Shown here piece after piece: positions 7,176 to 41,185 of a DNA stretch of 55,648 nucleotides; position 1 is the stretch's first letter, and each line of letters begins with the position of its first letter. This stretch comes from Stygiobacter sp. RIFOXYC2_FULL_38_25. Its GTDB lineage: Bacteria > Bacteroidota > Ignavibacteria > Ignavibacteriales > Melioribacteraceae. The notes beneath the pieces are model-generated. The model saw only the letters and a list, made by a program, of their open reading frames with translations, was not told the DNA's origin and did no database searches. Where the stretch lies: positions 1 to 55,648 of the forward strand of contig MHAZ01000008.1 in assembly GCA_001803165.1 (NCBI GenBank), given 5' to 3'. Both the position numbers and the translations under genes were made by a program.

Positions 7176-7221
7176 TTTCTCTCCAATTTTTTTATTTATT
7201 GTCTGGCGCCTAATTATATCT

Positions 7222-25222: not shown

Positions 25223-25247
25223 CTTCATTTCCAAAATATTTTTATGA

Positions 25248-26012
25248 TTAACGCCCCATCCAGCCGCCATCAACGGTTACAACACTTCCGTTAAGATAGC
25301 TAGAAGCATCAGAGCAAAGAAACAAAACTGTTCCCATTAAGTCTTCAGGTGTTCCCCAGCGACCGGCTGGAATTCTCGCTAAGATTGATTTATTTCTTTC
25401 CTCATCTTCTCGTAATGCTTTTGTGTTATCAGTAGCAATGTAGCCGGGAGCTATTGCATTAATTGTTACACCTTTTCCAGCCCATTCATTCGCAAAAGCC
25501 ATGGTTAATTGTTTAACTCCGCCTTTGCTAGCAGCATAGCCAGGCACAGTAATTCCACCTTGAAAAGAAAGCAGCGATGCAATAAAAACTACTTTTCCGT
25601 AACCGCGGGAAACCATTTCCTTTCCAAATTCGCGCGTGAGAATGAACTGAGCTGAAAGATTTATCTCAATCACTTTATCCCAATATTCATCGGAGTGTTC
25701 CGCTATAGGCTGACGAAGAATTGTACCGGCATTGTTTACTAAAATATCCACACGCGGAAAATCTGCTTTAACTTTTTTAATGAATTCGTACAAAGCTTTG
25801 CGGTCGGAAAAATCACAAACGTAACCTTTGAATTTGCTTCCGCGTTCAGTAATTAATTTTTCTGTTTCAGAGAAATCTTGTTCATAAGAGGCACTGATGA
25901 TTACATCTGCACCGGCTTCTGCTAATGCCAAAGCATAATATTGACCGATTCCTTTGTTAGCGCCGGTTACAATCGCGGTTTTACCTTTCAAGCTAAATTT
26001 ATCAAGTACCAT
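25248..26012 (-). CDS. kduD: 2-dehydro-3-deoxy-D-gluconate 5-dehydrogenase
   Basis: 254 residues from the ATG at 26012 (AAGGAA seven bases upstream); a GTG two codons earlier is less likely. A short-chain dehydrogenase that reduces 2,5-diketo-3-deoxygluconate (DKII) to KDG with NAD(P)H. The Rossmann motif TGANKGIG, NNAG, the catalytic Ser in IASLLSFQGG and YAASK are all present, and the length fits KduD. The sequence FSLKGKTAIVTGANKGIGQYYALALAEAGADV is characteristic of KduD rather than of generic SDRs. It lies directly after KduI, the preceding step, with a 12-base gap. Confidence 0.93.
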   Translation of the reverse strand: MVLDKFSLKGKTAIVTGANKGIGQYYALALAEAGADVIISASYEQDFSETEKLITERGSKFKGYVCDFSDRKALYEFIKKVKADFPRVDILVNNAGTILRQPIAEHSDEYWDKVIEINLSAQFILTREFGKEMVSRGYGKVVFIASLLSFQGGITVPGYAASKGGVKQLTMAFANEWAGKGVTINAIAPGYIATDNTKALREDEERNKSILARIPAGRWGTPEDLMGTVLFLCSDASSYLNGSVVTVDGGWMGR

Positions 26013-26023
26013 GTTCACATTCC

Positions 26024-26857
26024 TTATTTTAAATCTTTAGTTGCAATAGCATCCATATCGTCAAAAACTTGGTTCTCTCCGCCCATCGCCCAGATGAAAG
26101 AGTAGCTTTGCGTTCCGCAGCCGGAGTGAAGCGACCAGCTTGTTGAAAGCACTGCTTGCCTATCACGAATAATTATGTGGCGCGTTTCATTTGCTTCGCC
26201 CATTAAGTGAACAACAAAAGCATCCGGATTCAAATTGAAATACATGTAAACTTCGCTTCGGCGTTGGTGAGTATGACAAGGCATTGTATTCCAAACACTT
26301 CCATCTTCAAGTTCAGTCAATCCCATTACGAGCTGGCAAGTTGGAAAAAGCTCCGGCAAAATGTATTGGTTGATCGTTCGCTTGTTTGAAGTTTCCGTTG
26401 AACCAAGATGACGGTGAATTGCTTGCTCGTAAGTAATATGTTTTGTTGGATAAGAAGTATGAGCCGGATAGCTGACAAAATAAAAATGAGCCGGAGTTTC
26501 GGCACTATCACTTTTGAACTCTATACTCTTAGCACCTTTTCCGATGTAGAGCGCATCGCGGTAATTCATCTTGTAATCGGCTCCATCTATTGTCACTACA
26601 CCGTACTTACCAATATTAATTACACCAACTTCTCTACGCTCGCAGAAATGTTCTGCAGCCATTTCCTTTTTTGTAGCGATAAGCTGAAGAGTTTTTCCAA
26701 CCGGAACTGCAGAGCCAGTAATTGATCTATCTACATCAGAGTAAACCATTGGAATTTCGTTTGGAGTAAAAAGAGTTTCAATCAAAAATGAATTGCGAAG
26801 TTCCGTCGTATCCATCTTTTTAAACCCATTCTGATCCGGTGAATATCTTACTTCCAT
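26024..26857 (-). CDS. kduI: 5-keto-4-deoxyuronate isomerase
   Basis: 277 residues, close to the E. coli length. It converts 4-deoxy-L-threo-5-hexosulose uronate, which forms spontaneously from unsaturated galacturonate, to 2,5-diketo-3-deoxygluconate. The zinc ligands are visible as HTHQRRSE (His195, His197, Glu202) and His244 in SLHSG, one residue off the E. coli numbering. GAGGAT precedes the ATG. It links the PL9 lyase and GH105 hydrolase outside the cell to the cytoplasmic KDG pathway. 33 bases separate it from the transketolase gene upstream. Confidence 0.95.
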   Translation of the reverse strand: MEVRYSPDQNGFKKMDTTELRNSFLIETLFTPNEIPMVYSDVDRSITGSAVPVGKTLQLIATKKEMAAEHFCERREVGVINIGKYGVVTIDGADYKMNYRDALYIGKGAKSIEFKSDSAETPAHFYFVSYPAHTSYPTKHITYEQAIHRHLGSTETSNKRTINQYILPELFPTCQLVMGLTELEDGSVWNTMPCHTHQRRSEVYMYFNLNPDAFVVHLMGEANETRHIIIRDRQAVLSTSWSLHSGCGTQSYSFIWAMGGENQVFDDMDAIATKDLK

Positions 26858-26890
26858 TTTATCCTCTTTCTCTTTAGTAAGAGAGATTTT

Positions 26891-28876
26891 TTATAACCAG
26901 CTTTTAATTTTTTCTGCAACACTCGCTCCGGTGAAACCAAATTTTTCTGCGAGTGTTTGATATGGAGCAGAAGCGCCAAAAGATTTCATTCCTATCAACA
27001 ATAATTTTTGTCTGAACAAATCTCCCCATCCAGTCATTGTTGCAGCTTCAATTACAACAACCGGAACATCAGCCGGGAATATCTTTGCTTTGTATTCTTC
27101 AGATTGCTTCTCGAAAATTTCTCGAGAAGGAATTGAGACAACTCTGATATTATACTTATCACCAAGTAATTTCTTTGCTGAATCTGCGACCGGAACTTCC
27201 GAACCGCTTGCAGCGATTACTAAATCAAGCTTACCATCTTTTTCTTTGCTTGTTATGTATGCGCCTTTTAATACTTCACTTGGATTAAAATCTTCAGCTC
27301 TATCAAACGCATCTATTTTTTGTCTGGTGAGAATTAGCGAAACCGGTCCATCAGTTTTTCTTAACGCGTAAGCCCAAGCCATCGCCGTTTCAATTCCATC
27401 TGCCGGACGAAGGACAGTTGAGTTTGGAATTGCTCTCAGCACAGCCAAATGTTCAACCGGTTGATGAGTTGGTCCATCTTCGCCAACAAAAATTGAATCG
27501 TGAGTGAAAACGTAAATTGCAGGAATTTGCATAATCGCAGCCAGGCGAATTGTCGGGCGCATATAATCCGAGAATACAAAAAATGTTGCGCCGAAAGCTT
27601 TGTATCCGCCGTAAAGTGTTATTCCATTTAGAATAGAACCCATTCCATGTTCACGAACTCCAAAGTGGAAATTTCTTCCGCCGAATTTATCGGCGAATAT
27701 CGCATCGAAGCCGTTCATAAAAGTATTAGTAGATGGAGCCAAATCAGCAGATCCGCCGACAAAGTATGGAACAAGTTGTGCTAATTTCTGAATTACTTTA
27801 CTTGATAAAGTTCTCGTAGCGCTTGGTTCTTTTGAAACAGCCGCAACTAATTCTTCTTCAAGATTTTCCGGCAGCCAGCCGCTTAATGCTTTTTCATACT
27901 GATCAGCTTTTTCAGTTTCACTCTTCTTCCATGCAATAAAATCCTTTTGCCAAGCATCGTAAAGTTTTTTCATTTCGCTTTTGCGGTCTGCAAATAAATC
28001 TGCAACTTCTTGCGGGACGTAAAATTCTCTATCAACGGACCAGCCTAAATTTTCTTTAGTCTTGATCATTTCTTCTTTGCCAAGCGGTGAGCCGTGAACT
28101 TCATGTGTGTTAGCTTTATTCGGCGAGCCAAACCCAATTGTAGATTTTGTTATAACCAAGGTTGGTTTTTCTTTTTCAGCTTGTCCAGCTAAAATTGCTT
28201 TTCTAATTCCATCGTGATCGTAAGCGTCTGTATGAAGGACTTGCCAGCCGTAGCTTTCAAATCTCTTCTGAATATCTTCTGAGAAAGTTAAATAGGTATG
28301 TCCTTCAATTGTAATTGTATTATCATCATAGAAATAAATTACGTTGCCAAGTTTCAAATGTCCGGCTGTTGAAGCTGTTTCGTGAGAAACACCTTCCATC
28401 AAATCGCCATCGCCGCAGAATCCATAAATATAATTTCCAGCAAAAAGATTTCCGTAACGGGCTTCTGTCATCTTTGCGGCAATCGCCATTCCAATCCCAT
28501 TTCCAAAACCTTGTCCCAATGGACCGGTAGTAGTTTCAACTCCCGGAACGTGTCCATACTCAGGATGACCGGCAGTTTTGCTTCCCCATTGTCTAAATGA
28601 TTTTAAATCATCCATCGTTACATCATAACCAGTAAGATGAAGCATAGAATAAATCAACATTGAACCATGACCACCGGAAAGAACAAATCTATCACGTCCG
28701 GCCCACTTAGGATCATCGGGATTATGCTTAATAAATTCTGTCCATAATATTGCCGCAACATCAGCCATTCCCATCGGCATTCCGGGATGACCGGAGTTTG
28801 CTTTCTGCACACCTTCCGCTGCTAAAATTCTAATTGTATTTGCTGTCAGTTTCTTAATATCCAATTTCTTCTCCAC
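26891..28876 (-). CDS. tkt: Transketolase
   Basis: About 661 residues. It transfers two-carbon units between sugar phosphates with thiamine diphosphate. Motifs: ANSGHPGMPMG, the ThDP-binding GDGDLMEGVSHE, HDSIFVGEDGPTHQPVEH and the C-terminal domain ending near MKSFGASAPYQTLAEKFG. The frame opens with GTG at 28876, but GGAG lies six bases before a TTG at 28864, so the true start may be this TTG, four codons later. It sits between gnd and kduI in the uronate operon. Transketolase is not part of the classical KDG pathway, so its place here points to flux through pentose phosphates. Confidence 0.95.
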   Translation of the reverse strand: MEKKLDIKKLTANTIRILAAEGVQKANSGHPGMPMGMADVAAILWTEFIKHNPDDPKWAGRDRFVLSGGHGSMLIYSMLHLTGYDVTMDDLKSFRQWGSKTAGHPEYGHVPGVETTTGPLGQGFGNGIGMAIAAKMTEARYGNLFAGNYIYGFCGDGDLMEGVSHETASTAGHLKLGNVIYFYDDNTITIEGHTYLTFSEDIQKRFESYGWQVLHTDAYDHDGIRKAILAGQAEKEKPTLVITKSTIGFGSPNKANTHEVHGSPLGKEEMIKTKENLGWSVDREFYVPQEVADLFADRKSEMKKLYDAWQKDFIAWKKSETEKADQYEKALSGWLPENLEEELVAAVSKEPSATRTLSSKVIQKLAQLVPYFVGGSADLAPSTNTFMNGFDAIFADKFGGRNFHFGVREHGMGSILNGITLYGGYKAFGATFFVFSDYMRPTIRLAAIMQIPAIYVFTHDSIFVGEDGPTHQPVEHLAVLRAIPNSTVLRPADGIETAMAWAYALRKTDGPVSLILTRQKIDAFDRAEDFNPSEVLKGAYITSKEKDGKLDLVIAASGSEVPVADSAKKLLGDKYNIRVVSIPSREIFEKQSEEYKAKIFPADVPVVVIEAATMTGWGDLFRQKLLLIGMKSFGASAPYQTLAEKFGFTGASVAEKIKSWL

Positions 28877-28969
28877 TGTTTTTTGTACTACACGAAAATA
28901 TAAAATATTTCACTCTGCCAGCCTCGACTTGCGTCTTCTACAAGGCAGGTGTTCTGCGTTCGGAATTTA

Positions 28970-28986
28970 TCCGCCGATAAGGCGGA
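28970..28986. repeat. Short inverted repeat after gnd
   Basis: TCCGCC and GGCGGA around GATAA, seven bases past the gnd stop codon. No T-tract follows, so it is a weak terminator candidate or an interspersed palindrome. The surrounding 116-base gnd-tkt spacer holds no gene. Confidence 0.4.
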
Positions 28987-28992
28987 CTCAAT

Positions 28993-30444
28993 CTAAACGC
29001 TGTATGTAGTCGAAGCCGTATCTCCGCCGCGTCCGGTCCAGTTTGTATGGAAGAATTCGCCGCGAGCTTTATCAACTCTTTCGTAAGTATGGGCGCCAAA
29101 ATAATCGCGCTGAGCTTGCAGAAGGTTTGCCGGTAATCTTCCGTTGCGGAATCCATCAAAATAATTTAACGCAGTTGAAAGAACCGGAATCCAAATACCA
29201 TTAGTAGCTGCTGTTGCTACAACTTTTCTCCACGATTCTTGAGCATCCATAATCTTCCCGGCAAAGAAAGGATCAAGTAAAAGGTTTGTGAGATTCGGAT
29301 TTATATCGAACGCTTCTTTAATCTTGCCTAAGAATGCAGAGCGAATAATACATCCGCCGCGCCACATTAACGCAATGCCGCCGTTGTTCAAATTCCATCC
29401 AAATTCTTGAGCTGCGTAACGCATCAGTACATAACCTTGTGCGTAAGAAACCAACTTGGATGCATAAACTGCTTTTCTAATATCTTCTATGAATTGTTTT
29501 TTATCACCTTCAAATTTTGGAGTTGGTCCGCTTAAAACTTTTGAAGCTTCAACGCGATCATTCTTCAATGCAGAAAGTGCACGTGCGTAAACAGCCTCTC
29601 CAATCAATGTTAGAGGAGTTCCGGTATCTAGTGATGCAACAACCGTCCACTTGCCGGTTCCTTTCTGTCCGGCAGTATCTAGAATTTTATCAACAAGCGG
29701 AGAACCGTCTGCATCTTTAAACGCAAGAATATCGCGAGTGATTTCGATAAGATAACTTTCGAGTTCACCTTCATTCCAATCTTTGAATACTTCGTGCATT
29801 TCATCGGCGCTCATTCCCAAAAGATCTTTCATAATTTGATAAGCTTCGCAGATGAGCTGCATATCGCCATATTCAATTCCGTTGTGAACCATCTTAACAA
29901 AATGACCGGCACCGTTTTCGCCAACCCAATCGCAGCATGGAGTTCCATCAGCAACTTTTGCTGAGATTGATTGGAATATATCTTTCACATGAGGCCAAGC
30001 CGCAATAGAACCGCCGGGCATAATTGATGGACCTTTTAAGGCTCCTTCTTCGCCGCCGCTAACACCGGTTCCAATATAGAGTAAACCTTTCTCTTCCAAA
30101 TATTTTGTTCTTCTAATGGTATCCGGGAAATGTGAGTTGCCTCCATCAATAAGAATATCACCTTTTTCTAAATGAGGAATTAATAACTCAATAAAATCAT
30201 CAACCGGTTTACCGGCTTTCACCATCATCATAACTTTGCGCGGAGTTTTAAGATTTGCAGTAAGTTCTTCCAACGAATGCGCGCCAATTACATTCTTTCC
30301 TTTACCTCTGCCATTAACAAAGTTATCTACTTTATCAATTGTGCGGTTGTAAACCGCAACCTTGTAACCATGACTTTCCATGTTGAGAACAAGATTCTCA
30401 CCCATTACGGCAAGACCAACTAAACCAATGTCAGCTTTACTCAT
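28993..30444 (-). CDS. gnd: 6-phosphogluconate dehydrogenase, decarboxylating
   Basis: 483 residues, a full-length member of the long-form family. It oxidises 6-phosphogluconate to ribulose 5-phosphate with CO2 release. Motifs: GLAVMGENLVLNMESHGY with the Rossmann loop, YIGTGVSGGEEGALKGPSIMPGG, HNGIEYGDMQ with the catalytic Lys in FVKMVHNGIEY, and MWRGGCIIRS near the C-terminus. GAGGAAAT precedes the ATG. The NRTIDKV segment after the second strand suggests NADP preference. 14 bases after pdxB; transketolase follows. In this operon it would drain 6-phosphogluconate produced from uronate-derived gluconate, if the LarA and kinase genes act as proposed. Confidence 0.95.
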   Translation of the reverse strand: MSKADIGLVGLAVMGENLVLNMESHGYKVAVYNRTIDKVDNFVNGRGKGKNVIGAHSLEELTANLKTPRKVMMMVKAGKPVDDFIELLIPHLEKGDILIDGGNSHFPDTIRRTKYLEEKGLLYIGTGVSGGEEGALKGPSIMPGGSIAAWPHVKDIFQSISAKVADGTPCCDWVGENGAGHFVKMVHNGIEYGDMQLICEAYQIMKDLLGMSADEMHEVFKDWNEGELESYLIEITRDILAFKDADGSPLVDKILDTAGQKGTGKWTVVASLDTGTPLTLIGEAVYARALSALKNDRVEASKVLSGPTPKFEGDKKQFIEDIRKAVYASKLVSYAQGYVLMRYAAQEFGWNLNNGGIALMWRGGCIIRSAFLGKIKEAFDINPNLTNLLLDPFFAGKIMDAQESWRKVVATAATNGIWIPVLSTALNYFDGFRNGRLPANLLQAQRDYFGAHTYERVDKARGEFFHTNWTGRGGDTASTTYSV

Positions 30445-30458
30445 TTTATTTCCTCTAT

Positions 30459-31601
30459 TTATTTTTTCTTAAATCCTATTTGATACAATTTGTTTTGAAT
30501 TTTCTCTGCACAGTTTTTGAGTTCAATCGAATAGAATGTAAGCTCTCTCCGAACCGGATAATCGCCACGCTGCTTCTCAAATGTTTCTACAGAGCTTCGC
30601 AAGCAGTTATCATCTTCTTCAACTTTATACGTTGATAAAACAACTTCCCGAATTATTTCTTCTTCAGCTTTACCAGTGCAATCAATCCCGATTATGTTCG
30701 AGTTGCTTGAATTTGGAATTTCATCTGGATACCAATTCTTATCAAGAGGAAGATTAAAAAACTCAGCCAATCCATTCACACACATTGCTGTTCCGTTCGC
30801 TTTTCCATCAGCAGAATAACCGGCAATGTGAGGAGTTGCAATATCCGCAAGTTCCAGCAATTCCGGATCAATATTTGGTTCATTTTCCCAGACATCAAGA
30901 ACAAGATCGGAAACACTTCCATTCTTCACCGCGTTCTTCAAAGCAGTTGTTTCAACAACTTCACCGCGCGAACTATTAAAGACAATTTTGCTTTCGTAAA
31001 AACTTTCGAAAAATCTCTCATCAGCCAAGTGAAAAGTTTTGTCTTCGCCGCTTCTGTTAAGCGGAACATGAAAAGTAATAATGTCGCTGCCCTTAACAAG
31101 TTCGTCAAGTGAAACAAATTGATTTCCACCTTCTCTTCTTTGTCTGGGCGGATCGCATAGAAGAACATTCATTCCAATTGCTTTAGCAAACCTCTCAACT
31201 TTACTTCCAACGTTTCCAACTCCAACAATTCCTAAAGTCATATCAACAAGTTTGATGTTTTTTCTTGCTGCAATAGTAACCAATGCTGATGCGATGTACT
31301 GCTGAACAGAACTTGAGTTACATCCCGGCGCACTCATCCAGCTAATCTTGTTCGCATCACAGTAAGAGTTATCAATGTGGTCAAATCCAATTGTTGCTGT
31401 AGCTATAAACTTTACTGCCGAACCGGCAAGTAAGTCTTGATTACATTTTGTTCTGGTGCGAATAAGAAGTGCATCTGCATGTTTCACTGTTTCTCTAATA
31501 ATTTCTTTCGGCGGTAAATAAATCACATCAGCAAAAGGCTCCAGCACTCCTTTTAAGAATGGAATCTTATCATCAGCCACTATCTTAATTCTGTTATTCA
31601 T
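30459..31601 (-). CDS. pdxB: 4-phosphoerythronate dehydrogenase-like (PdxB), D-2-hydroxyacid dehydrogenase family
   Basis: 380 residues, the usual PdxB length. PdxB oxidises 4-phosphoerythronate in pyridoxal phosphate synthesis. Visible features: IVADDKIPF start, ATIGFDHID, NAD-binding GVGNVGSKVERFAKAIG, HVPLN, the catalytic Arg in FNSSRGEVV, Glu in WENEPNID and His in PHIAGYSADGK, plus a C-terminal dimerisation region (about 290-380). Five bases separate it from the LarA-like gene, so translation is probably coupled. Vitamin B6 genes are unexpected in a uronate operon. Transketolase next door makes erythrose 4-phosphate, the precursor, which is one possible link; action on another sugar acid is an alternative. 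Confidence 0.85.
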   Translation of the reverse strand: MNNRIKIVADDKIPFLKGVLEPFADVIYLPPKEIIRETVKHADALLIRTRTKCNQDLLAGSAVKFIATATIGFDHIDNSYCDANKISWMSAPGCNSSSVQQYIASALVTIAARKNIKLVDMTLGIVGVGNVGSKVERFAKAIGMNVLLCDPPRQRREGGNQFVSLDELVKGSDIITFHVPLNRSGEDKTFHLADERFFESFYESKIVFNSSRGEVVETTALKNAVKNGSVSDLVLDVWENEPNIDPELLELADIATPHIAGYSADGKANGTAMCVNGLAEFFNLPLDKNWYPDEIPNSSNSNIIGIDCTGKAEEEIIREVVLSTYKVEEDDNCLRSSVETFEKQRGDYPVRRELTFYSIELKNCAEKIQNKLYQIGFKKK

Positions 31602-31606
31602 TGCGG

Positions 31607-32881
31607 TCAGTTGTTGAATCTATCCTTGTAAGCCCACAAGCCAAGAGCAGGGTTTGAGATGTAGAAAATTTCTTCTCCATCGGGCATTATGTTAAAACCA
31701 TCTTTCAAAATTTGCGGATTGTATTTATTCGTCATCTTCTTCAAATCAGCATACGAAAAATTCACACTTTCAATTTCTTCTTTTGTAAGATTTCCGGGAC
31801 AGTAAGTAATCTTAAATCTGTTTTCCGATGAACCATGAATCAAATGTGCAGCAGCGCTTAAATTATTTTTCAGTTCTTCATTTTCTTCAACATACTTAAG
31901 CACTTCCGGAGTTGTAACATAACCATACTTTCTAATCAAGCGGTCAATCTCTTTATCTTCACCAAATTCTTTTAAGCCGGGAGCGAGTACTATTAACTCA
32001 CCGTCATCTGCAATTGCCATTCTTGTTCTGTAAATACTTTTATTGCCAAGCCAGGTACTTTTGAACTCTGAAGGATCGAGATAAACAACGACTTTCTTCA
32101 GAGGTTCATCAACCATTTCGAAATTTACTTTGAGAGAAAGCTCTGCGGCGAGCTTAAATGTATCGTAATCATCACCAACAAATAATCCTTTAACAGCCAA
32201 ACGACCGTACATATCTTTGCCAACAACAGTTAATACATAAACTATAGGAAGATGTTTAGCAAAATTATCCGCGGCGTAATTTAGAACTTTACGAACCGGA
32301 GTATCGGCTCGTCCCATCATTCGTTCCATTCCGTAAACAGCGCCGAGGTAATGACTTTTGTTAATTCCTTCTTTGCCGCCGGTTCCAACAAAAATATTTT
32401 TAGCCTGGTTTGCCATTCCAACAACTTCGTGAGGGACAACCTGACCAACCGATAGAATTAAATCATAATTTCCTTCTGTCACGAGTTTATTCACCTGTGC
32501 AGGCCAAGAATAATTTAGTTTACCTTCACTCACTTCATTTATAAACTCTGAAGGAACTTCGCCAAGAGTTTGAAGATCGCTGCGCCATTTGTGAACACGA
32601 AAAATATTTTTAGGCACATTACCAAACATAGTTTCGATTTCTTTTTCAGACATTGCGGCGTGCGTTCCAAGTGCCGGTAATACGTCGGTCAGTTTCTCAC
32701 CATAATATTTGTAAGCAAGACGAGTTAATATTCCCGCATGAGAATGAAAGCGCGTAAAGTCGGGAGGAATTGCGAGCACCTTTTCTTTTAGCCCAAGTTT
32801 TTCCAGCGCTGAAAATAATCCTTCTCGTAAATCATCTTCATTTAGAATATCGCTTTCACTGCCACGTGCATAATAAATCAT
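31607..32881 (-). CDS. LarA-superfamily nickel-dependent 2-hydroxyacid racemase/epimerase
   Basis: 424 residues, a DUF2088 plus C-terminal domain layout as in lactate racemase LarA. The key residues for the nickel-pincer cofactor are conserved in spacing: His151 (VVPHEVVG), Lys161 ten residues later (QAKNIF) and His177 sixteen further (NKSH), matching His174, Lys184 and His200 of LarA; His74 in GTHAAM probably matches His108. Characterised members of the superfamily include lactate, malate and phenyllactate racemases and a D-gluconate 2-epimerase. Between a sugar-acid kinase and pdxB-gnd, epimerisation of D-mannonate to D-gluconate is the attractive guess. No larB, larC or larE cofactor gene is in the window. 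Lactate racemase itself is unlikely given the context. Confidence 0.82.
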   Translation of the reverse strand: MIYYARGSESDILNEDDLREGLFSALEKLGLKEKVLAIPPDFTRFHSHAGILTRLAYKYYGEKLTDVLPALGTHAAMSEKEIETMFGNVPKNIFRVHKWRSDLQTLGEVPSEFINEVSEGKLNYSWPAQVNKLVTEGNYDLILSVGQVVPHEVVGMANQAKNIFVGTGGKEGINKSHYLGAVYGMERMMGRADTPVRKVLNYAADNFAKHLPIVYVLTVVGKDMYGRLAVKGLFVGDDYDTFKLAAELSLKVNFEMVDEPLKKVVVYLDPSEFKSTWLGNKSIYRTRMAIADDGELIVLAPGLKEFGEDKEIDRLIRKYGYVTTPEVLKYVEENEELKNNLSAAAHLIHGSSENRFKITYCPGNLTKEEIESVNFSYADLKKMTNKYNPQILKDGFNIMPDGEEIFYISNPALGLWAYKDRFNN

Positions 32882-32902
32882 CGTTAATCTAATCCTTCAA
32901 AT

Positions 32903-33985
32903 TTATCTTTGAATTCTAGCCGAGCCGCCTTTTGCAAATGCTCTAACTTCTTCAACACTAGCCATAGTTGTATCGCCCGGAGTTGTTGTTAGCAGCGCAC
33001 CATGAGCCCAGCCAAGTTTAACAGCTTCTTCAGCAGATTCGCCATTTAACAAGCCGTAAATAAATCCGGCAGCAAAACCATCTCCGCCGCCAACTCTATC
33101 CAGTACATCTAGTTCGCAAGTTGGAGCAGAATAAGTTTTACCGTTAATCCAAGCTACTGCGCTCCAGCTATGTTTGTTTGTAGAATGTACTTCTCTTAAT
33201 GTTGTAGCAACTGATTTTATATTTGGATAACGAGCAGTTACATTATCAATCATAGCGAAGAAAACACTCGGATCTAATTTTGATTTAGCGTGAACATCGG
33301 GTCCCGGAAATCCCAACCCTTTTTGTAAATCTTCTTCATTGCCTACAAGAACATCAACATGCTTAACAATTCCATCTAAAACTTCCGCAGCTCTACTTTC
33401 GCCGCCCCAAATATTCCAAAGTTTAGCGCGGAAGTTCAGGTCAAAACTTGTAATTGCACCGGCTGCTTTCGCTGCTTTCATCGCTTCTATAATTAATTGC
33501 CCTGTAGTTTCTGAAAGCGAAGCGAAAATCCCGCCGCTATGAAACCATTTAATCCCGTTTGCAAATATAACATTCCAATCGAAATCTCCCGGCTTTAGAT
33601 AGGAAGCGGCTTCGTTACATCTATTATAGAAAACCACCGGAGCGCGAGAGCCCAAACCTCTGTCGCTGTAAACTGTTGCCATATTTGGTCCGTTCACACC
33701 GTTGTGTTTCATTTTTTTGTAGAACGGTTTAACACCCATAGCACGTACGCGTTCTGCAATTAATTCGCCAATAGGATATTCAACCATTGCGGTTGCAATA
33801 GCCGTGTTCATTCTAAAACAATCGGATAAATTTGCCGCGACATTAAACTCGCCGCCGCTAACATGAATTTGGCACTGCGTAGCTTTTCTAAATGGAATGA
33901 TTCCGGGATCCAAACGGTGAACAAGCGCACCGAGGGAGAGTAAATCTAAAGCTGCATCTTTTTTGATATTTAGTACTTCGCTCAT
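32903..33985 (-). CDS. PfkB-family sugar-acid kinase, KdgK paralogue
   Basis: 360 residues with AAGGAA eight bases before the ATG. PfkB motifs are clear: SGGEFNVAANLSDCF, FDLNFRAKLWNIWGG, GNEEDLQKGLGFPG and DRVGGGDGFAAGF with the catalytic Asp. It shares the KdgK-type DLNFRAKLW and NEEDxxKxLG blocks with the kinase at 24188, but has a longer N-terminus and an HNGVNGPNMATVYSDRG insertion near the substrate lid. Substrate could be KDG, or another hexonate such as gluconate. It is 21 bases upstream of the LarA-like gene and 116 bases downstream of the SDR gene, so it groups with the larA-pdxB-gnd part of the operon. Confidence 0.85.
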   Translation of the reverse strand: MSEVLNIKKDAALDLLSLGALVHRLDPGIIPFRKATQCQIHVSGGEFNVAANLSDCFRMNTAIATAMVEYPIGELIAERVRAMGVKPFYKKMKHNGVNGPNMATVYSDRGLGSRAPVVFYNRCNEAASYLKPGDFDWNVIFANGIKWFHSGGIFASLSETTGQLIIEAMKAAKAAGAITSFDLNFRAKLWNIWGGESRAAEVLDGIVKHVDVLVGNEEDLQKGLGFPGPDVHAKSKLDPSVFFAMIDNVTARYPNIKSVATTLREVHSTNKHSWSAVAWINGKTYSAPTCELDVLDRVGGGDGFAAGFIYGLLNGESAEEAVKLGWAHGALLTTTPGDTTMASVEEVRAFAKGGSARIQR

Positions 33986-34101
33986 TTTATATTTCCTTAA
34001 TTAATAGCTGCTATAAAAAACAAAGTGATTTTTCATACTACAATTGAGCAATTAATGTAATCAATGATTACAATTTCTCGTCCGCCGAAGCGAATATAGG
34101 A

Positions 34102-34947
34102 TTACACACCACTGTATGCGTTAAAACCGCCGTCAACCGGAATGATTACACCGGTTACAAATTTTGAGACATCTGAAATCAAATAGAAAAGTGTTCCGAG
34201 AAGTTCTTCCGGCTCACCAAATCTTCCCATTGGAGTTCCGTTAAGAATCTTGTTTGCACGAGCCGTTAACTCGCCCGACTTTTCATCAATCATTAAAAAT
34301 CTATTTTGATTTGTTAAAAAGAATCCGGGCGCAATTGTATTAACACGCACGTTTACTTTTGCAAAGTGAACAGCCATCCATTCTGTAAGATTATTAACCG
34401 AAGCCTTTGCAGCCGAGTAAGCGGGAATTTTTGTTAGCGGTCTAAAAGCATTCATTGAAGAAATGTTAATAATGCTTCCGCCTCGCACCAGCATGTCTTC
34501 CGCAAAAACCATTGTTGGGAGAACTGTGCCGAGGAAATTTAGATCGAACACATTTCTAAATCCTTCAATATCTAAACCAAAGAATGATTTAGAAAGATCA
34601 TTCATATTATCCGGTGTTAAAAACTCATTCGCGCAAGTTGCTTTGGGAGAATTTCCGCCGGCACCATTTATCAAAATATCAATCTTACCAAGTTTTTCAT
34701 TTATTTGTTTTTTTGCTTCCAACAAACTTTCTTTATTGAGAACATTACCTATTACACATAAAACCGGCTTACCTTCCTTCGCCGCCAAACCCCGTGAGCA
34801 CTCTTCACATCTTCCTTGTTTATAATCTAGGATGGCAACTTTGGCACCGGCTTCCATTAGTGCTTGAGAAAAGACGCCGCCAAAAACTCCGCAGCCTCCG
34901 GTGATTACACAAACCTTACCTTCCACATCTGCAAACGACAAATCCAT
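34102..34947 (-). CDS. SDR D-mannonate oxidoreductase (fructuronate reductase, UxuB-like)
   Basis: 281 residues with GGAG upstream of the ATG. It should reduce D-fructuronate to D-mannonate with NAD(P)H. Cofactor motif TGGCGVFGG (variant of TGxxxGIG), NGAGGNSP, catalytic Ser in NISSMNAF and YSAAK are present. The long NGAGGNSPKATCANEFLTPDN segment and the ITLxxKxLN-like NKILNGTPMGRFGEPEELLG block are typical of the SDR-type mannonate oxidoreductases found with uxaC/uxuA in Firmicutes and Bacteroidota. It lies nine bases after the KDPG aldolase gene. Its product mannonate normally goes to UxuA, which is absent here. Confidence 0.88.
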   Translation of the reverse strand: MDLSFADVEGKVCVITGGCGVFGGVFSQALMEAGAKVAILDYKQGRCEECSRGLAAKEGKPVLCVIGNVLNKESLLEAKKQINEKLGKIDILINGAGGNSPKATCANEFLTPDNMNDLSKSFFGLDIEGFRNVFDLNFLGTVLPTMVFAEDMLVRGGSIINISSMNAFRPLTKIPAYSAAKASVNNLTEWMAVHFAKVNVRVNTIAPGFFLTNQNRFLMIDEKSGELTARANKILNGTPMGRFGEPEELLGTLFYLISDVSKFVTGVIIPVDGGFNAYSGV

Positions 34948-34956
34948 TTTAATCTC

Positions 34957-35604
34957 CTACTTCTTTATAGCGTTATTTATGTTTTGTGTTATCAACTTAG
35001 CGTTTTCCGTGAGCTTAGAATAGTTTTCAGAATCAATTGCATCTTTATCTAACAATGCTGAGCCAATCCCGACGGCAACAGCGCCGGCTTTAATCCAATC
35101 GCCGGCATTAGTAAGAGAAACGCCGCCGGTTGGCATTAATTTTAAGTGAGGCATCGGCGCAAGAATTCCCTTGAAGAAAGCCATTCCTAAAACGTCCGCC
35201 GGAAAAACTTTTACAACGTCTGCGCCATATTCGTAAGCGGTTAAAATTTCGGTTGGAGTAAAACAGCCGGGCATTGCGGGAACATCGTAAGCATGGGCTG
35301 CATCTATAATTTCTTTTTTGAAAACCGGGCTAACTACATATTTAGCTCCGGCTTCAATTGCTTGTTTTGCTGTGTCGGCATTCAAAACTGAGCCAACACC
35401 TACAATGATATCTTCACTTAATTCTTGTGTTATTTGTTTAATCAATCCAATAGCGTTTGGAACAGTCATAGTAACTTCGGCAACAGAAACGCCTCCAAGA
35501 GCTATAGCTTCAATTACTTTTTTGAGTTTGTCCGCATCTTTCAAACGGATTACAGCAACGGATTTTCTTTTTAGAATTTCTTCTAAGATTTTTTCTCTTT
35601 TCAT
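34957..35604 (-). CDS. eda: KDPG/KHG aldolase
   Basis: 215 residues from the ATG at 35604, one base after the uxaE stop codon, which implies translational coupling; a 10-residue extension would overlap uxaE. It cleaves 2-keto-3-deoxy-6-phosphogluconate to pyruvate and glyceraldehyde 3-phosphate. The Schiff-base Lys132 in VKVFPAD, Glu43 in VAEVTMT, GCFTPTE (113-119) and PTGGVS are all present, at nearly the E. coli numbering. It completes the KduI-KduD-KdgK route and the UxuA-type route if a dehydratase is encoded elsewhere. Confidence 0.95.
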   Translation of the reverse strand: MKREKILEEILKRKSVAVIRLKDADKLKKVIEAIALGGVSVAEVTMTVPNAIGLIKQITQELSEDIIVGVGSVLNADTAKQAIEAGAKYVVSPVFKKEIIDAAHAYDVPAMPGCFTPTEILTAYEYGADVVKVFPADVLGMAFFKGILAPMPHLKLMPTGGVSLTNAGDWIKAGAVAVGIGSALLDKDAIDSENYSKLTENAKLITQNINNAIKK

Positions 35605-35605
35605 A

Positions 35606-37156
35606 TTAGCAAAAAGGCTCAATGTGTTTGACAAAATGGTTAGTTAAGAATTTATAATGAGTCTCTTCATTTTCTTTAAGGCAATTTAAAATTTTATTTT
35701 TGAATAAATACCCGCTATCAGTTTTTTCAGTCAACACTTTACCAAATGTTACATGCAGTACTTGACGAGCATCTTCTGAGTTGAAAAGTCCGAGCAATTC
35801 TTGATCTGTGTAACCTGAAGCCGGTTTCAAATTACTCAACACAGCCGAAACATGGTAAGACATTTTTTCTGTTTCGTATAAACCGAAACAAAAATTGTAA
35901 ATCGCTCTAAAAAGTTTTGGATCTTCTGCTGCCACTACACGAAGCGCCTCAAGGTAGCTTGTTCCGGCTGTTTTAACGTGTGTGTGTGCACTGTGTAGCG
36001 AGCCTATTACTTTGTAAACAGAAAATTTATCGCTGCCGGAGTGAAGGCTAATTTTATAATTGCCAAAATATTTCGTTATGGCTAAATGCTTAACATATTC
36101 TCTCTTGAACAAATCCAAATCGCCTTTGTAGTCTATACCCTTTTCAAAATCACCAATGAAGCGGGGGGCAAGACTAACAAATTCAACTTTCAAACGGTGA
36201 AGTTCGTTCGCAAAAAAGAAATGTTCGAATGTTGAGGTCACTGATTCAGTTTCATCAACTGATACTTCTACTTCGAACGGACGACCTTCGCTTTCATTCT
36301 TTAAATGCTCAAACATTTTTTTGATGTGAGCAATTGCTTTCCCATACTTTGCATATGCACGCAAGAAATCTTGCTCGTTTACATTCAGAATAAATTCATT
36401 ACTAATCTTAAATTCCTTTTGAGAGTAGCGTCTTTCAGCCGCCGGGAATGTATCGTTAAGCTCACTCCACGGCAGATTTGCCACAACGCTGAAAAGTTTT
36501 TGTTCGTCATATTCATCAGCATTGTTATCAACGTGCTCACCCGGATCAAAAGTAAACATTGTAAATCCGGCATCAAGCATCACTGTAATATCAGCAGGAG
36601 TTTTTAAATGATCAGCATCTGAGCCGAAACCATTTTTATATCCTTCTTGAAACACTGCCCAAACTGCTGCATCCATAACTTCATCTGCACTTCTTTGCGT
36701 TCTTGTGAGTTCCCTTATTGATTGTTGAGCAAGAATTGGTTTGAAATTTCCAATATTCAACGAACGAATATGACCTGCGTTTGCCAATCCCAATCTATCG
36801 CCGAAACCAAAAGAATCATTTATACCAAGAACTTGTGGAACTGTAAAGCTAAAAAGTGATTGAAGCGCCACACGGTTGCTTTTGGATAGTTCACACTTTT
36901 TAAGAATTTGTGTATCGCTCTCATTAACTATAGCTCCGTTGAACTTTTCTTTTGTCGCAGATTTTGCCTTAGGTGCTAACAGGTATAAATATTTTTCAAT
37001 TCCTTCCCTTCCGATAAAGAACATAATCTCGTTTAAGTGATTAATAGAGTTGGGATACACTTGAATTGAATAGCTATCATTTATCTTTAGTTCAAGCAGA
37101 TCGTTTGTTACAGATTTTGAGTCCGAAAACTTTTCCAATAATTTTTGAAAATCCAT
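35606..37156 (-). CDS. uxaE: Tagaturonate epimerase (UxaE family)
   Basis: 516 residues, typical length. UxaE epimerises D-tagaturonate to D-fructuronate at C3, replacing the UxaB-UxaA branch of E. coli. Recognised from the SFGFGDRLGLANAGH block, the SIRELTRTQRSADEVMDAAVWAVFQEGYKNGFGSDADHLKT block, TFDPGEHVDN and the KISLHSGSDKFSVYKVIG metal-site region. AGAAGGAAAG precedes the ATG. It is ten bases after uxaC, so galacturonate flows UxaC to tagaturonate, UxaE to fructuronate, then SDR to mannonate. Consistent with this, no altronate dehydratase or tagaturonate reductase is in the cluster. Confidence 0.92.
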   Translation of the reverse strand: MDFQKLLEKFSDSKSVTNDLLELKINDSYSIQVYPNSINHLNEIMFFIGREGIEKYLYLLAPKAKSATKEKFNGAIVNESDTQILKKCELSKSNRVALQSLFSFTVPQVLGINDSFGFGDRLGLANAGHIRSLNIGNFKPILAQQSIRELTRTQRSADEVMDAAVWAVFQEGYKNGFGSDADHLKTPADITVMLDAGFTMFTFDPGEHVDNNADEYDEQKLFSVVANLPWSELNDTFPAAERRYSQKEFKISNEFILNVNEQDFLRAYAKYGKAIAHIKKMFEHLKNESEGRPFEVEVSVDETESVTSTFEHFFFANELHRLKVEFVSLAPRFIGDFEKGIDYKGDLDLFKREYVKHLAITKYFGNYKISLHSGSDKFSVYKVIGSLHSAHTHVKTAGTSYLEALRVVAAEDPKLFRAIYNFCFGLYETEKMSYHVSAVLSNLKPASGYTDQELLGLFNSEDARQVLHVTFGKVLTEKTDSGYLFKNKILNCLKENEETHYKFLTNHFVKHIEPFC

Positions 37157-37166
37157 TTCTTTCCTT

Positions 37167-38579
37167 CTATAGTTTGTAGGCTTCTTTAGCCAAATTATAA
37201 GTGAGGTCTTTTGCTATGATCATTGCTTCTTCAATTGAAATTATGTGCCGGGCAACTAAACCAGCCAGAAAATTCGAATCAACTCTTCGGGCTACATCAT
37301 GCCTTGCCGGTATCGAAACAAAAGCACGAGTATCATCAATAAAACCAGCCGTATTATAGAATCCGGCTGTTTCAGTTACTTGCTGTCTAAATCTTGTAAT
37401 TCCTTCAATGCTGTCATGGAACCACCAAGGCGGTCCAAGTTTCATTGCCGGATAATGACCGGCAAGCGGTGCCAATTCGCGCGAGTAATTTGTTTCATCC
37501 ATCGTAAAAACAATAACAGTAAAACGAGAATCGTTTCCATATTTGTTGAGTAGTTCTTGCATGTTCTTCGTGTATTCACAAGTTGTTGGTATGTCGGCAC
37601 CTTTATCCGCACCAAACTTTGTGAATACATCTTTGTTATGGTTTCTGTAAGCTCCGGCATGAATCTGCATAACCAGTCCATCCTCAACACTCATATGCGC
37701 CATTTGCATCAGCATGTGGGCAGTAAATGCATCAGCATCTGATTGAGTGCTTGTTCCGCTCAAACCTTTCAGGAAAAGTTTTTCTGCTTCGTCGTCACCG
37801 AGATCGTGAGCATAAGCAGAAACAACTCCATGATCAGTAGAAGTAGCGCCCATCTCTTTGAAAAACTTTCTTCGTTCTTCGAGCGCTTGAATTAAGCTTT
37901 TGTAAGTAGTGATTTCGTAGCCAACTATTTGCCCTAACTTTTCCACGTTGCTTTTCCAGGCAAAGTTTGATAAGTCAGTAATACCATCGGGACGAAAAGC
38001 CGGAACCACCTTTCCCTTCCAGCCGCTTTCTTTTATTTTTTTATGAGGTTCAAGTGTATCGAATGGCGCATCGGTTGTGGATAGGACTTCTATTCTGAAT
38101 TTTTCGAATAATGTTCTGGGGAGAAATTCCGGCAAGTTTATTTTCTCATTCAGTTCATCATAAATTTTGAGAGCATTCTCACCGTTCAACTTTTCTTTTA
38201 TGCCGAAAACAATGTTGAATTCATAATCGAGCCAAACGCCGCTTGGTGTACCGTTAAACAAATAATAATTCTCTGCAAAGAGTTTCCAAATTTTCTTCGG
38301 ATCATTTTCAACCGGAGTACCATTTGCACTCGGAATTCCAAGCGATTCCAAAGAAACTCCTTTGGAATAGAGCATTCTAAAAATATAATGATCCGAAGTT
38401 AAAAAAAGTTGTGTCGGATTCGGGAACGGTTTGTTATCAACAAAAATCTGCGGATCTACATGTCCATGCGGGGAAATGATTGGCAAATTTTTGATCGTCG
38501 CGTAAATATCACGGGCAATATTTCTGATTGCCGGATTCGGATCGAAAAATCTATCTTCGTGTAAATTATAGAGAGCCAT
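37167..38579 (-). CDS. uxaC: Glucuronate/galacturonate isomerase
   Basis: 470 residues, the family's usual length. It isomerises D-galacturonate to D-tagaturonate and D-glucuronate to D-fructuronate. The amidohydrolase-like metal motif SPHGHVDPQ appears near residue 35, preceded by DRFFDPNPAIRNIARDIY. Downstream family blocks include STTDAPFDTLEPHKKI, VVPAFRPDGI, MQIHAGAYRNHN and FIDDTRAFVSIPARHDVARRVDSNFLAGLVARH. GAGGT precedes the ATG. Twelve bases after the DUF4861 gene, in the operon headed by the transporter. Confidence 0.96.
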   Translation of the reverse strand: MALYNLHEDRFFDPNPAIRNIARDIYATIKNLPIISPHGHVDPQIFVDNKPFPNPTQLFLTSDHYIFRMLYSKGVSLESLGIPSANGTPVENDPKKIWKLFAENYYLFNGTPSGVWLDYEFNIVFGIKEKLNGENALKIYDELNEKINLPEFLPRTLFEKFRIEVLSTTDAPFDTLEPHKKIKESGWKGKVVPAFRPDGITDLSNFAWKSNVEKLGQIVGYEITTYKSLIQALEERRKFFKEMGATSTDHGVVSAYAHDLGDDEAEKLFLKGLSGTSTQSDADAFTAHMLMQMAHMSVEDGLVMQIHAGAYRNHNKDVFTKFGADKGADIPTTCEYTKNMQELLNKYGNDSRFTVIVFTMDETNYSRELAPLAGHYPAMKLGPPWWFHDSIEGITRFRQQVTETAGFYNTAGFIDDTRAFVSIPARHDVARRVDSNFLAGLVARHIISIEEAMIIAKDLTYNLAKEAYKL

Positions 38580-38591
38580 TAAAACCTCAAA

Positions 38592-39824
38592 TCAATATTC
38601 TATTGTTAATGGGTTGTTTAATTCTTCAACAACTAATGCTAAATAGTTATCAAACTCTTCCTGGGTTTTAATTCCGCCCGATTCTTGTTCCCAGGCGGCG
38701 CAGAAATAGTATTCGAGTTTTCCTTTGTTCGGCTTAAGTTTTACGATTTGGCTAACAGCGTCTTCGGTTAACTCAATTAAATCTTTCTTCTTGAAGAGAA
38801 TAGCAATTCCAAGTTTGTCTCCGGAAAGAGCTTGCTTTCCGTACAGTGCCAAATAACCCCATCCTTTTTTAGGATCGAGTTTGGTTAAATTCGTTCCGGC
38901 ATATTTTGCTAATCCGGTTACTAAATTTTCCGGTTCTCCATCAATTGTAACTGCGTGTTTTGTTAATCTGCTTCCGGCTGTAATTGAAAATCTTGATTCG
39001 ACATTATATTTTTTATAACCAACCAGCCAACCAAAATAGTTAGTTCGAATTTCGGATTTAACCGGACCGTTTTTGGAAACTTGGCAAAGTATGCTGTCCG
39101 TTTTGGAAATCATATTTACTTTGCTGTCTGTAAACATTCCGAGCGCACCAATGCCGAGAGATGTTCCAACTTTAAAAATATCCATTCCCCAATCTTGCAT
39201 TGTGTGGTAAGAATCGTCATTGTTTCCAAGTGTATCTGTAACTCCTACTGTATTCAGCACAAGTGAATTTACTTTCTTGCCAAAAATGTCTGTAGCGTTT
39301 CTCCAATCTAAATAAAAACGGTAACCAACTTTTTCACTTTCCCAGCCCGGACCTTCATACTTAAAAAGTGCATCGTGGTCTGTATGGACTGCCGGCACTT
39401 TTACCTTATTAACATTTGTAAACTTTGTACCCCGGAATTTCTTTCCGTCATACTGAAGATTTTTCTTCATTGCGATTTCAGCATAAGTTCTTTCTGCAAA
39501 AGCTGATGGCTTCTTCCCGAGAGTGAATTTTAGTTCTTTAGTTTCGTTTGGTTTCATGTTAAGCAAGACAAGAATTTGAGCGCCCTTCGTTTTGTTCTTT
39601 TCGATTTGGAATGCCAGCTCAGTCTCCCCATCGAAAACAGAAAACAAATCCAAATTGAAATCAGTGTGTGCATTGATTATTTCCTTTGAGGAAATGCTTA
39701 CAACTGCATCGGGTCTTTCCTTTGCTAAAGGATTCTTCACTTTAACCACAAATGACTTCTCTTGTGCAATGTTCGTTGAAGCTACAAGTAGAATTAATGC
39801 GAAAAATAATTTCAGTGTCTTCAT
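38592..39824 (-). CDS. DUF4861 exported protein of pectin loci
   Basis: 410 residues with a signal peptide ending near TNIAQ (about residue 20), so it acts in the periplasm or outside. The rest is one large beta-rich domain matching DUF4861: FRGTKFTNVNKVKVPAVHTDHDALFKYEGPGWESEKVGYRFYLDWRN and YHTMQDWGMDIFKVGTSLGIGALG are the recognisable blocks (about 130-225). No activity is established for the family that I can state. It is often found beside GH105 and uronate genes in Bacteroidota, which suggests a late step of rhamnogalacturonan or glucuronide breakdown. It lies between the transporter and uxaC. No clear ribosome site precedes the ATG. Confidence 0.85.
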   Translation of the reverse strand: MKTLKLFFALILLVASTNIAQEKSFVVKVKNPLAKERPDAVVSISSKEIINAHTDFNLDLFSVFDGETELAFQIEKNKTKGAQILVLLNMKPNETKELKFTLGKKPSAFAERTYAEIAMKKNLQYDGKKFRGTKFTNVNKVKVPAVHTDHDALFKYEGPGWESEKVGYRFYLDWRNATDIFGKKVNSLVLNTVGVTDTLGNNDDSYHTMQDWGMDIFKVGTSLGIGALGMFTDSKVNMISKTDSILCQVSKNGPVKSEIRTNYFGWLVGYKKYNVESRFSITAGSRLTKHAVTIDGEPENLVTGLAKYAGTNLTKLDPKKGWGYLALYGKQALSGDKLGIAILFKKKDLIELTEDAVSQIVKLKPNKGKLEYYFCAAWEQESGGIKTQEEFDNYLALVVEELNNPLTIEY

Positions 39825-39857
39825 AATGTTTATTTTATAATTGATTAAAAATTCAGA

Positions 39858-39887
39858 TGGCGGCTAGAATTTCCGAGCTTGCCGCCA
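39858..39887 (-). terminator. Hairpin between transporter and DUF4861 genes
   Basis: TGGCGGC and GCCGCCA (39858-39864, 39881-39887) with a 16-base loop. On the minus strand a TTTTT run follows nine bases later. It could act as a partial terminator or a processing site that separates transporter expression from the rest of the operon. Confidence 0.45.
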
Positions 39888-39925
39888 CCTGCTCTTTTAT
39901 AGGAGGCACTATAAAAAGAAACTTT

Positions 39926-41185
39926 CTAAACTAATTTTACTTCTTCCAAAGTCGGTATCATAAAATTGTAAATGGCAAAGGATATCAGATACATACTTCC
40001 CGCAATTATGAACAGTATTAAATAGCTTCCTGTAAGTTGTAAAATGAATCCGGCTGCCGTAGCAATTAACATTCCTCCTATTGCACCTGCCATTCCGCCA
40101 AAACCTACAACAGAGCCAATTGCTTTTCTAGGAAAAACGTCTGATGCAGTAGTAAATAAATTAGCCGACCAGCCTTGATGAGCAGCAGTAGCAAGGCTTA
40201 ATAAAGCAACTGCAACCCACAGATTATCCGTCTGAGAAACAAATACAATCGGAGTAACAAGGATAGCGCAAATAAGCATAGCTGCTTTTCTTCCTTTGTT
40301 TACACCCCAACCACGTTTAATAAAGAAAGAAGAAAGCCATCCGCCGCCAACGCTTCCAACATCAGCCATTACATAAATGATAATTAGCGGGAGACCAATT
40401 TTATCCAGAGTGATATTGTAATTTTTATATAAGAACTTTGGAATCCAGTAAAGGTAAAACCACCAAACCGGATCTGTTAAAAATTTAGCAAGTGCAAAAG
40501 CCCAAACTTGTTTGTGTTTCATTAACGATAACCAAGGAATTGCCTCTTGGGGATCAGGCGGATCTGACTGAATGTATTCCAGTTCTTCTTTAGATAACCT
40601 TTTTTGTTTTTCCGGTTTTTCATAATAGATATTCCAAAAGATCAGCCAAACTAATCCAATTAAACCGGTGATGATAAATGCTTCCTGCCAGCCCCATGTT
40701 AACGCAATCCAGGGAACAGCTAATGGTGCAACTATAGCGCCTACATTTGAGCCGGCATTAAAAATACCGGTAGCAAAAGCTCTTTCTTTCTTGGGGAACC
40801 ATTCTGCAACAGTTTTTACTGCCGCCGGAAAGTTGCCGGCTTCAAAAAGACCGAGAAAAAATCTTGCAATGGAAAAACCCATTACTGTAGAGGCAAGCGC
40901 GTGTCCGGCTGCTGCAAGGCTCCATCCGGTTAAAGATGCAGCATAACCTTTCTTTGTTCCAATTCTATCAACTAATCTACCAACTAGTAATAATCCTAAT
41001 GCGTAAGCCGCTTGGAAAGCTAAGACGATTGAAGCATATTCCATTTCGTTCCAGCCAATTTCTTTTTCCAAAGTAGGCGCAAGAATTCCTATGATTTGGC
41101 GGTCCATATAATTAATCGTTGTAGCAAAAAAGAGTAAGGCAATTATTGTCCATCTGTATTTACCAACACGAACCTTATGTTCCAT
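39926..41185 (-). CDS. MFS hexuronate transporter (ExuT/ACS family)
   Basis: 419 residues with twelve predicted membrane helices. It should carry galacturonate or glucuronate across the inner membrane by proton symport. Family blocks: INYMDRQIIGILAP in helix 1, GRLVDRIGTKKGYA after helix 2, RFFLGLFEAGNFPAAVKTVAEWFPKKERAFATGIFNAGSNVGAIVAP across helices 4-5, and WWFYLYWIPKFLYK in helix 7, all typical of the anion:cation symporter subfamily. GGAG precedes the ATG. First gene of the long uronate operon, with a candidate operator 50 bases upstream. Confidence 0.93.
   Translation of the reverse strand: MEHKVRVGKYRWTIIALLFFATTINYMDRQIIGILAPTLEKEIGWNEMEYASIVLAFQAAYALGLLLVGRLVDRIGTKKGYAASLTGWSLAAAGHALASTVMGFSIARFFLGLFEAGNFPAAVKTVAEWFPKKERAFATGIFNAGSNVGAIVAPLAVPWIALTWGWQEAFIITGLIGLVWLIFWNIYYEKPEKQKRLSKEELEYIQSDPPDPQEAIPWLSLMKHKQVWAFALAKFLTDPVWWFYLYWIPKFLYKNYNITLDKIGLPLIIIYVMADVGSVGGGWLSSFFIKRGWGVNKGRKAAMLICAILVTPIVFVSQTDNLWVAVALLSLATAAHQGWSANLFTTASDVFPRKAIGSVVGFGGMAGAIGGMLIATAAGFILQLTGSYLILFIIAGSMYLISFAIYNFMIPTLEEVKLV

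Follow-up and report, generated by a model that had tools for sequence, protein, structure and literature searches.

The closest described counterpart of the uronate route considered here is that of Thermotoga maritima, in which gnd, uxaE, uxaD, gntE and gntK belong to one pectin regulon (UxaR) and a conversion of mannonate to gluconate has been proposed (PMC3750489), a proposal that PMC6978723 credits to Rodionova 2012. Activity of T. maritima GntE2 on mannonate has been shown, with a kcat of 197 per s and a KM of 17 mM (PMC7583248). We analysed the 55,648-nucleotide contig MHAZ01000008.1 (C8; hereafter the window) of the 4.4 Mb genome of Stygiobacter sp. RIFOXYC2_FULL_38_25 (22 contigs; completeness 99.82%), in which a LarA homologue likewise shares a uronate operon (24188–41185, minus strand) with a kinase, Gnd, UxaE and a fructuronate reductase. 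We give a probability of roughly 0.65 to the reading that this operon runs a uronate route without the mannonate dehydratase UxuA, leading from mannonate through gluconate and 6-phosphogluconate to ribulose 5-phosphate.

The initial annotation of the window, made from the sequence alone, had proposed this series of intermediates. The series is supported by context, namely the lack of UxuA and the position of the kinase outside the clade of 2-keto-3-deoxygluconate (KDG) kinases; the route itself is already known for T. maritima. New here are another LarA group, a PfkB kinase and the lack of UxuA. T. maritima GntE2 is a LarAH20 enzyme, whereas the LarA homologue of the window falls in group 18 and is 26% identical to it over the structural alignment; the kinase is of PfkB type rather than T. 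maritima GntK, which we take to belong to another family; and T. maritima has UxuA and matches LarC in our control searches, in contrast to the present genome, in which UxuA, larB, larC and larE were not found. A second known system, that of Lactobacillus suebicus, shares the initial isomerase-route steps, 6-phosphogluconate and Gnd, but there mannonate is phosphorylated first and a phosphoketolase follows downstream, with the genes unidentified in that report (PMC6978723).

With the substrates of LarA and of the kinase (KIN2), the use of nickel-pincer nucleotide (NPN) and the source of NPN all predicted, the route would run as follows. UxaC, UxaE and a short-chain dehydrogenase/reductase (SDR) would convert galacturonate and glucuronate to D-mannonate; the group-18 LarA would invert C2 by hydride transfer on NPN, giving D-gluconate; KIN2 would phosphorylate gluconate; and Gnd would turn 6-phosphogluconate into ribulose 5-phosphate, CO2 and NADPH. 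A second branch, made up of KduI, a KduD-like protein, a KDG kinase (gene starting at 24188) and Eda, would serve unsaturated pectin fragments. As the NAD(P)H consumed by the reductase is balanced by the NADPH formed by Gnd, the path as far as ribulose 5-phosphate would be approximately redox-neutral, as is stated for L. suebicus (PMC6978723), and the NADPH gain foreseen in the initial annotation would disappear.

The LarA homologue and its genomic partners

Several lines of evidence bear on the proposed epimerase. First, the protein passes the curated model NF052594, named 'putative hexonate epimerase', and we read it as group 18 (LarAH18) of Desguin et al. 2020, for which those authors hypothesised a hexonate epimerase function (PMC7583248). 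Among PDB sequences, 4nar (T. maritima GntE2; 1.4e-40) alone matches it at E 0.001, and its AlphaFold2 model (mean predicted local distance difference test score 90.8) superposes on 4nar with a Z score of 40.0 and a root-mean-square deviation of 2.9 over 392 aligned residues, compared with Z scores of 22.0–29.4 for other LarA-family entries. In the alignment to 4nar, the catalytic residues of LarA (D72, H108, H174 and K298) correspond to D41, H74, H151 and K281, and its NPN residues (R75, K184 and H200) to R44, K161 and H177, so that all seven are kept, as the initial annotation had noticed for the nickel-pincer residues. Six of the seven are invariant across 112 rows (the window and 111 relatives) and K281 is kept in 111, the single gap coming from a partial gene. 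The loop signature of groups 18–20 (EV/S, W) is present as E152, V153 and W277.

Second, the gene has recurrent neighbours. LarAH18 exceeds the cut-off in 32 of 197 genomes of the class, the present one included, and is split over two contigs in a further genome (G192), giving 33; short carboxy-terminal pieces in G191 and G166 were excluded. Neighbours were read at 32 further LarAH18 loci of the class and at 80 loci of named genomes, the best 80 of 583 and thus leaning to close kin, which makes 111 after L083, on the same contig as L048, was dropped. By record title these loci come from Ignavibacteria, Bacteroidota, Planctomycetota, Verrucomicrobiota and others. Neighbours were scored by BLAST against proteins of the window or of the loci, which means that an unrelated replacement registers as absent; 'near' means within 5 kb, and 68 of the loci have 5 kb on both sides. 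On the same strand, gnd is near LarAH18 in 58 of the 68 and the reductase in 51; PdxB and UxaE are near in 27 and 22, respectively. The gnd–LarAH18 linkage, which the initial annotation had suggested looking for in relatives, is more than chance. Transketolase, which it had placed in the same gene set, is near on the same strand at only 2 of the 68 loci and is a local addition to the operon.

Third, at three loci (L063, L064 and L069) a LarA of another type stands beside KIN2 (77–82%) and Gnd (74–80%). These other-type LarAs are 45–51% alike mutually, and that of L063 scores 215 bits to 4nar; among all seven loci with this type (L063–L069), KIN2 occurs in three, another PfkB kinase in two, and none was seen in two. 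Since the same KIN2 and Gnd accompany either, the two LarA types replace each other, and we regard this exchange beside unchanged partners as the strongest reason to assign LarAH18 the function of GntE2. It also bears on the possibility that the kinase acts first, in which case KIN2 would phosphorylate mannonate and the LarA homologue would be a 6-phosphomannonate 2-epimerase. Galacturonate-grown L. suebicus shows both of these activities in extracts and forms no gluconate from mannonate without ATP (PMC6978723), and the present gene set is compatible with either order. GntE2, however, the nearest solved relative, acts on free mannonate, GntE2-like LarAs share KIN2 at the three loci above, and the substrate loop retains the E-V, W signature of groups 18–20; we regard this order of steps as quite unlikely.

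Fourth, zwf is absent from 11 of the 33 LarAH18 genomes. Ten of the 11 have gnd within 5 kb of LarA, and in the eleventh (G013) the distance is about 8 kb. With zwf absent and gnd near LarA, 6-phosphogluconate would most simply come from gluconate in these 11 genomes.

PdxB was considered as possible proof of a new step; PdxJ, however, occurs in 40 of 40 genomes, so plain vitamin B6 synthesis by PdxB is possible. 4-Phosphoerythronate inhibits Gnd (PMC6449344), and PdxB encoded near LarA might protect Gnd by removing this compound, instead of making vitamin B6.

Kinases and mannonate dehydratases

KIN2, a putative gluconate kinase, stands apart from the KDG kinases. Its best score with a curated KDG kinase equivalog is 127 bits, below the cut-off of 440, and it reaches 168 bits to the KDG kinase 2afb, versus 416 bits for the kinase at 24188; the latter is, on these scores, a KDG kinase encoded by a gene separate from KIN2. 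The structure model of KIN2 superposes on 2afb with a Z score of 44.7. A FastTree phylogeny places three groups each on its own side of a branch: KIN2, the KDG kinases and a second PfkB type. 2afb and other PfkB KDG kinases share the fold of KIN2 and its R122 and R186, but KIN2 forms a separate clade. The two arginines are invariant across 23 aligned kinases, and the stretch preceding R122 differs between KIN2 and the KDG kinases. R122 and R186 presumably bind a carboxylate.

Across the 111 loci, the kinase near LarA is KIN2 in 29, the second PfkB type in 38 and a PfkA type in 9, never two together. We considered the PfkA type as a third kinase; the protein tested (from L037) scores as a pyrophosphate (PPi)-dependent phosphofructokinase. 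At L037 (10637–12895, minus strand), L039, L072, L074, L079 and others, the PfkB kinase gives way to a PPi-phosphofructokinase-like protein and a HAD-family protein, both encoded between LarA and the reductase, and the HAD protein is also near at 9 of the 9 loci with the PfkA type near.

The initial annotation had noted that the operon lacks a mannonate dehydratase, and the same holds genome-wide for UxuA and ManD, the two families covered; Edd/IlvD-type enzymes were not searched for. UxuA (PF03786) was not found in the present genome; of 14 known genomes used as controls, 5 gave a UxuA match in the same search. ManD (NF043051) exceeds the cut-off in none of 20 genomes, the present one included, and in 2 of 14 controls. 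As a stand-in for UxuA it was rejected: 16 of the 20 show weak enolase-superfamily matches only, and the best match here (52 bits, cut-off 550) looks by eye like a dipeptide epimerase.

The idea that LarA and UxuA are mutual alternatives was likewise rejected. UxuA occurs in 20 of the 197 class genomes, 19 of which also carry LarAH18 or a LarA of the 138–190 bit band; among the 13 genomes with the latter, 5 have UxuA. On these counts LarA is more frequent than UxuA, which for the most part occurs in addition to LarA.

Several observations weigh against the proposed route. The KM of GntE2 for mannonate is high (PMC7583248), and T. maritima failed to grow when gluconate, glucuronate or galacturonate was the sole source (PMC3750489). 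No measured activity of a group-18 LarA is reported in the literature examined. The closest solved relatives of KIN2 are KDG kinases, and none of the three kinase types was seen near LarA at 35 of the 111 loci. UxuA adjoins LarA at L108 and co-occurs with LarAH18 in 14 of the 33 class genomes, so the two are not alternatives in general. None of larB, larC and larE was found in the genome that carries the operon. Finally, this genome has zwf, which makes the zwf argument indirect for it.

The presence of zwf also suits a different explanation, in which the LarA homologue acts as an epimerase on a different hexonate or sugar acid, while the neighbouring Gnd and PdxB serve the ordinary pentose phosphate pathway; the name of NF052594, which goes no further than a putative hexonate epimerase, leaves room for it. 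UxaC, UxaE and the reductase, however, lead to mannonate, for which no other known enzyme was found (UxuA and ManD searched), and the linkage of gnd to LarAH18 extends to genomes without zwf. We consider another substrate improbable.

NPN-site enzymes without known NPN synthesis genes

The initial annotation had suggested searching the genome for larB, larC and larE. LarC (PF01969) has no match here; LarB (NF033503) has none over the cut-off, its sole match (5e-9) presumably being PurE; and LarE (TIGR00268) has none over the cut-off, its best weak match (5.7e-10) lying in a 551-residue frame. This outcome counts against mannonate epimerization by LarA without overturning it, because the operon and the NPN site are conserved in many genomes in which these genes were not found. 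Such genomes make up 14 of the 33 of the class with LarAH18, the present one included, and three of them (G106, G149 and G180) are single-contig genomes. LarC occurs in the other 19, of which 17 have LarB and LarE over the cut-off. All 13 class genomes with a LarA of the 138–190 bit band (7 of them viewed as loci) have LarC, compared with 19 of 33 for LarAH18 (Fisher test, P = 0.004, kinship uncorrected). LarC is also lacking in 24 of 45 further LarAH18 genomes from the 80 named loci, for which LarC alone was sought and completeness is not given; one is an isolate, Draconibacterium aestuarii Z1-6. A quick tree of 85 LarAs requires at least 13 changes of the LarC state, of which 6 are forced by starred branches. 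A search for sequence features that would set apart the LarAH18 proteins of LarC-less genomes gave only weak differences.

The LarA gene itself is under strong purifying selection. Between the present genome and G195, a member of the same genus also lacking larB, larC and larE, the ratio of nonsynonymous to synonymous substitution rates (dN/dS; Nei–Gojobori, with dS near or above 1) is 0.039 for LarA, 0.048 for Gnd and 0.034 for KIN2, within a span of 0.028–0.095 for eleven genes; LarA pairs from LarC-bearing genomes give 0.061–0.112, three LarA pairs yielding no ratio. Together with the invariant residues, these values indicate that LarA and its NPN site are kept where known NPN synthesis is lacking.

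The enzyme might instead be independent of NPN or use another cofactor, or lar genes might be present in forms too divergent to be found or in unassembled sequence. Divergent lar genes occur in G202, whose compact larB–larE–larC cluster (L152, 6873–9219) encodes a LarB at 176 bits (at the cut-off), a LarE at 127 bits (short of the cut-off) and a 271-residue short LarC; the present genome, moreover, is in 22 contigs. Yet the three residues that should hold NPN if LarA is a guide (K161, H177 and R44) are invariant in all 112 rows, 38 of them from LarC-less genomes, single-contig genomes lack the genes too, and a short-LarC profile gives no match in 38 LarC-less genomes, its two hits being the genomes used to build it and hence a weak control. 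We think these explanations rather unlikely.

In Carboxylicivirga (L151 and L153), a short LarC occurs with no larB or larE within the 15 kb fetched. In G066, of the same family as the present genome, larC, larE and larB are clustered (C115, 9173–11940) and no LarA is detected with the group-18 model at E 0.001, making it a possible NPN maker without a group-18 LarA.

If the LarA homologue is the epimerase that we propose, its NPN would most likely be taken up or made by an undescribed path, as none of the known synthesis genes was found in the genome; more broadly, these bacteria may scavenge NPN, synthesize it differently or do without it. We put forward tentatively, with the odds a little short of even, that NPN is a shared, vitamin-like cofactor and that many pectin users without larB, larC and larE get it, or a precursor, from neighbours or by an undescribed path. 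Uncoupling of NPN synthesis from use has been described in the opposite direction, larB, larE and larC occurring without larA in about 15% of genomes (PMC11796402); here the enzyme occurs without the synthesis genes. An NPN enzyme without larB, larC and larE was not found described in the literature searched, and Desguin 2014 may note such cases. This orphan enzyme is the point that would surprise a specialist.

The operon and what the route would mean

The operon follows a pectin locus on the same minus strand (43–21277) with pectinesterases, GH28, GH88, GH43 and a Pel9A-like protein. In the order of transcription it comprises an MFS transporter, a DUF4861 protein, UxaC, UxaE, Eda, the SDR reductase, KIN2, LarA, PdxB, Gnd, transketolase, KduI, the KduD-like protein and the KDG kinase (Table 1), with gaps of 21, 5 and 14 bases between KIN2, LarA, PdxB and Gnd. 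The genes listed in the initial annotation, from UxaC to transketolase, lie where it had placed them; it had omitted Eda, which is part of the same run. The transporter is a probable hexuronate importer. Judged by the LarA gene, the closest named relatives are metagenome-assembled genomes of Ignavibacteria (87%, L071), as also in the tree. In the pectin locus, a 775-residue protein (4959–7286) encoded beside a TonB receptor has no Pfam match at 1e-5.

Table 1. Genes of the uronate operon in the window, in order of transcription
Feature	Position	Strand	Evidence
MFS transporter	39926..41185	-	PF07690, 220 bits; relatives within 5 kb in 13/68 LarAH18 loci
DUF4861 protein	38592..39824	-	PF16153, 305 bits
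UxaC uronate isomerase	37167..38579	-	PF02614, 294 bits
UxaE tagaturonate epimerase	35606..37156	-	PF16257, 577 bits
Eda, 2-keto-3-deoxy-6-phosphogluconate (KDPG) aldolase, Kdu branch	34957..35634	-	TIGR01182, 190 bits, cut-off 156
SDR fructuronate reductase (D-mannonate oxidoreductase)	34102..34947	-	NF006132, 385 bits, cut-off 281
KIN2, PfkB sugar-acid kinase, putative gluconate kinase	32903..33985	-	PF00294; no NCBIfam equivalog over cut-off; own clade
Group-18 LarA homologue, putative NPN-dependent mannonate/gluconate 2-epimerase	31607..32881	-	NF052594, 675 bits, cut-off 500
PdxB 4-phosphoerythronate dehydrogenase	30459..31601	-	NF001309, 457 bits, cut-off 434
Gnd, decarboxylating 6-phosphogluconate dehydrogenase	28993..30444	-	TIGR00873, 766 bits
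Transketolase	26891..28876	-	PF00456, PF02779, PF22613
KduI	26024..26857	-	NF002091, 421 bits, cut-off 250
KduD-like SDR	25248..26018	-	NF005390, 345 bits, slightly below cut-off 369
KDG kinase, Kdu branch	24188..25273	-	T. maritima KDG kinase 2afb, 416 bits

The same route logic, with a LarA group of putative function and three alternative kinase types, provides candidates for direct assay, and the ideas of NPN uptake and of alternative synthesis are both testable in cultured strains. Should NPN be synthesized differently, a second route to it is still to be discovered. If it can be taken up, nickel-pincer chemistry would be exchanged within communities, and a shared cofactor, if that reading is true, would mirror the genomes that make NPN without any LarA (PMC11796402).

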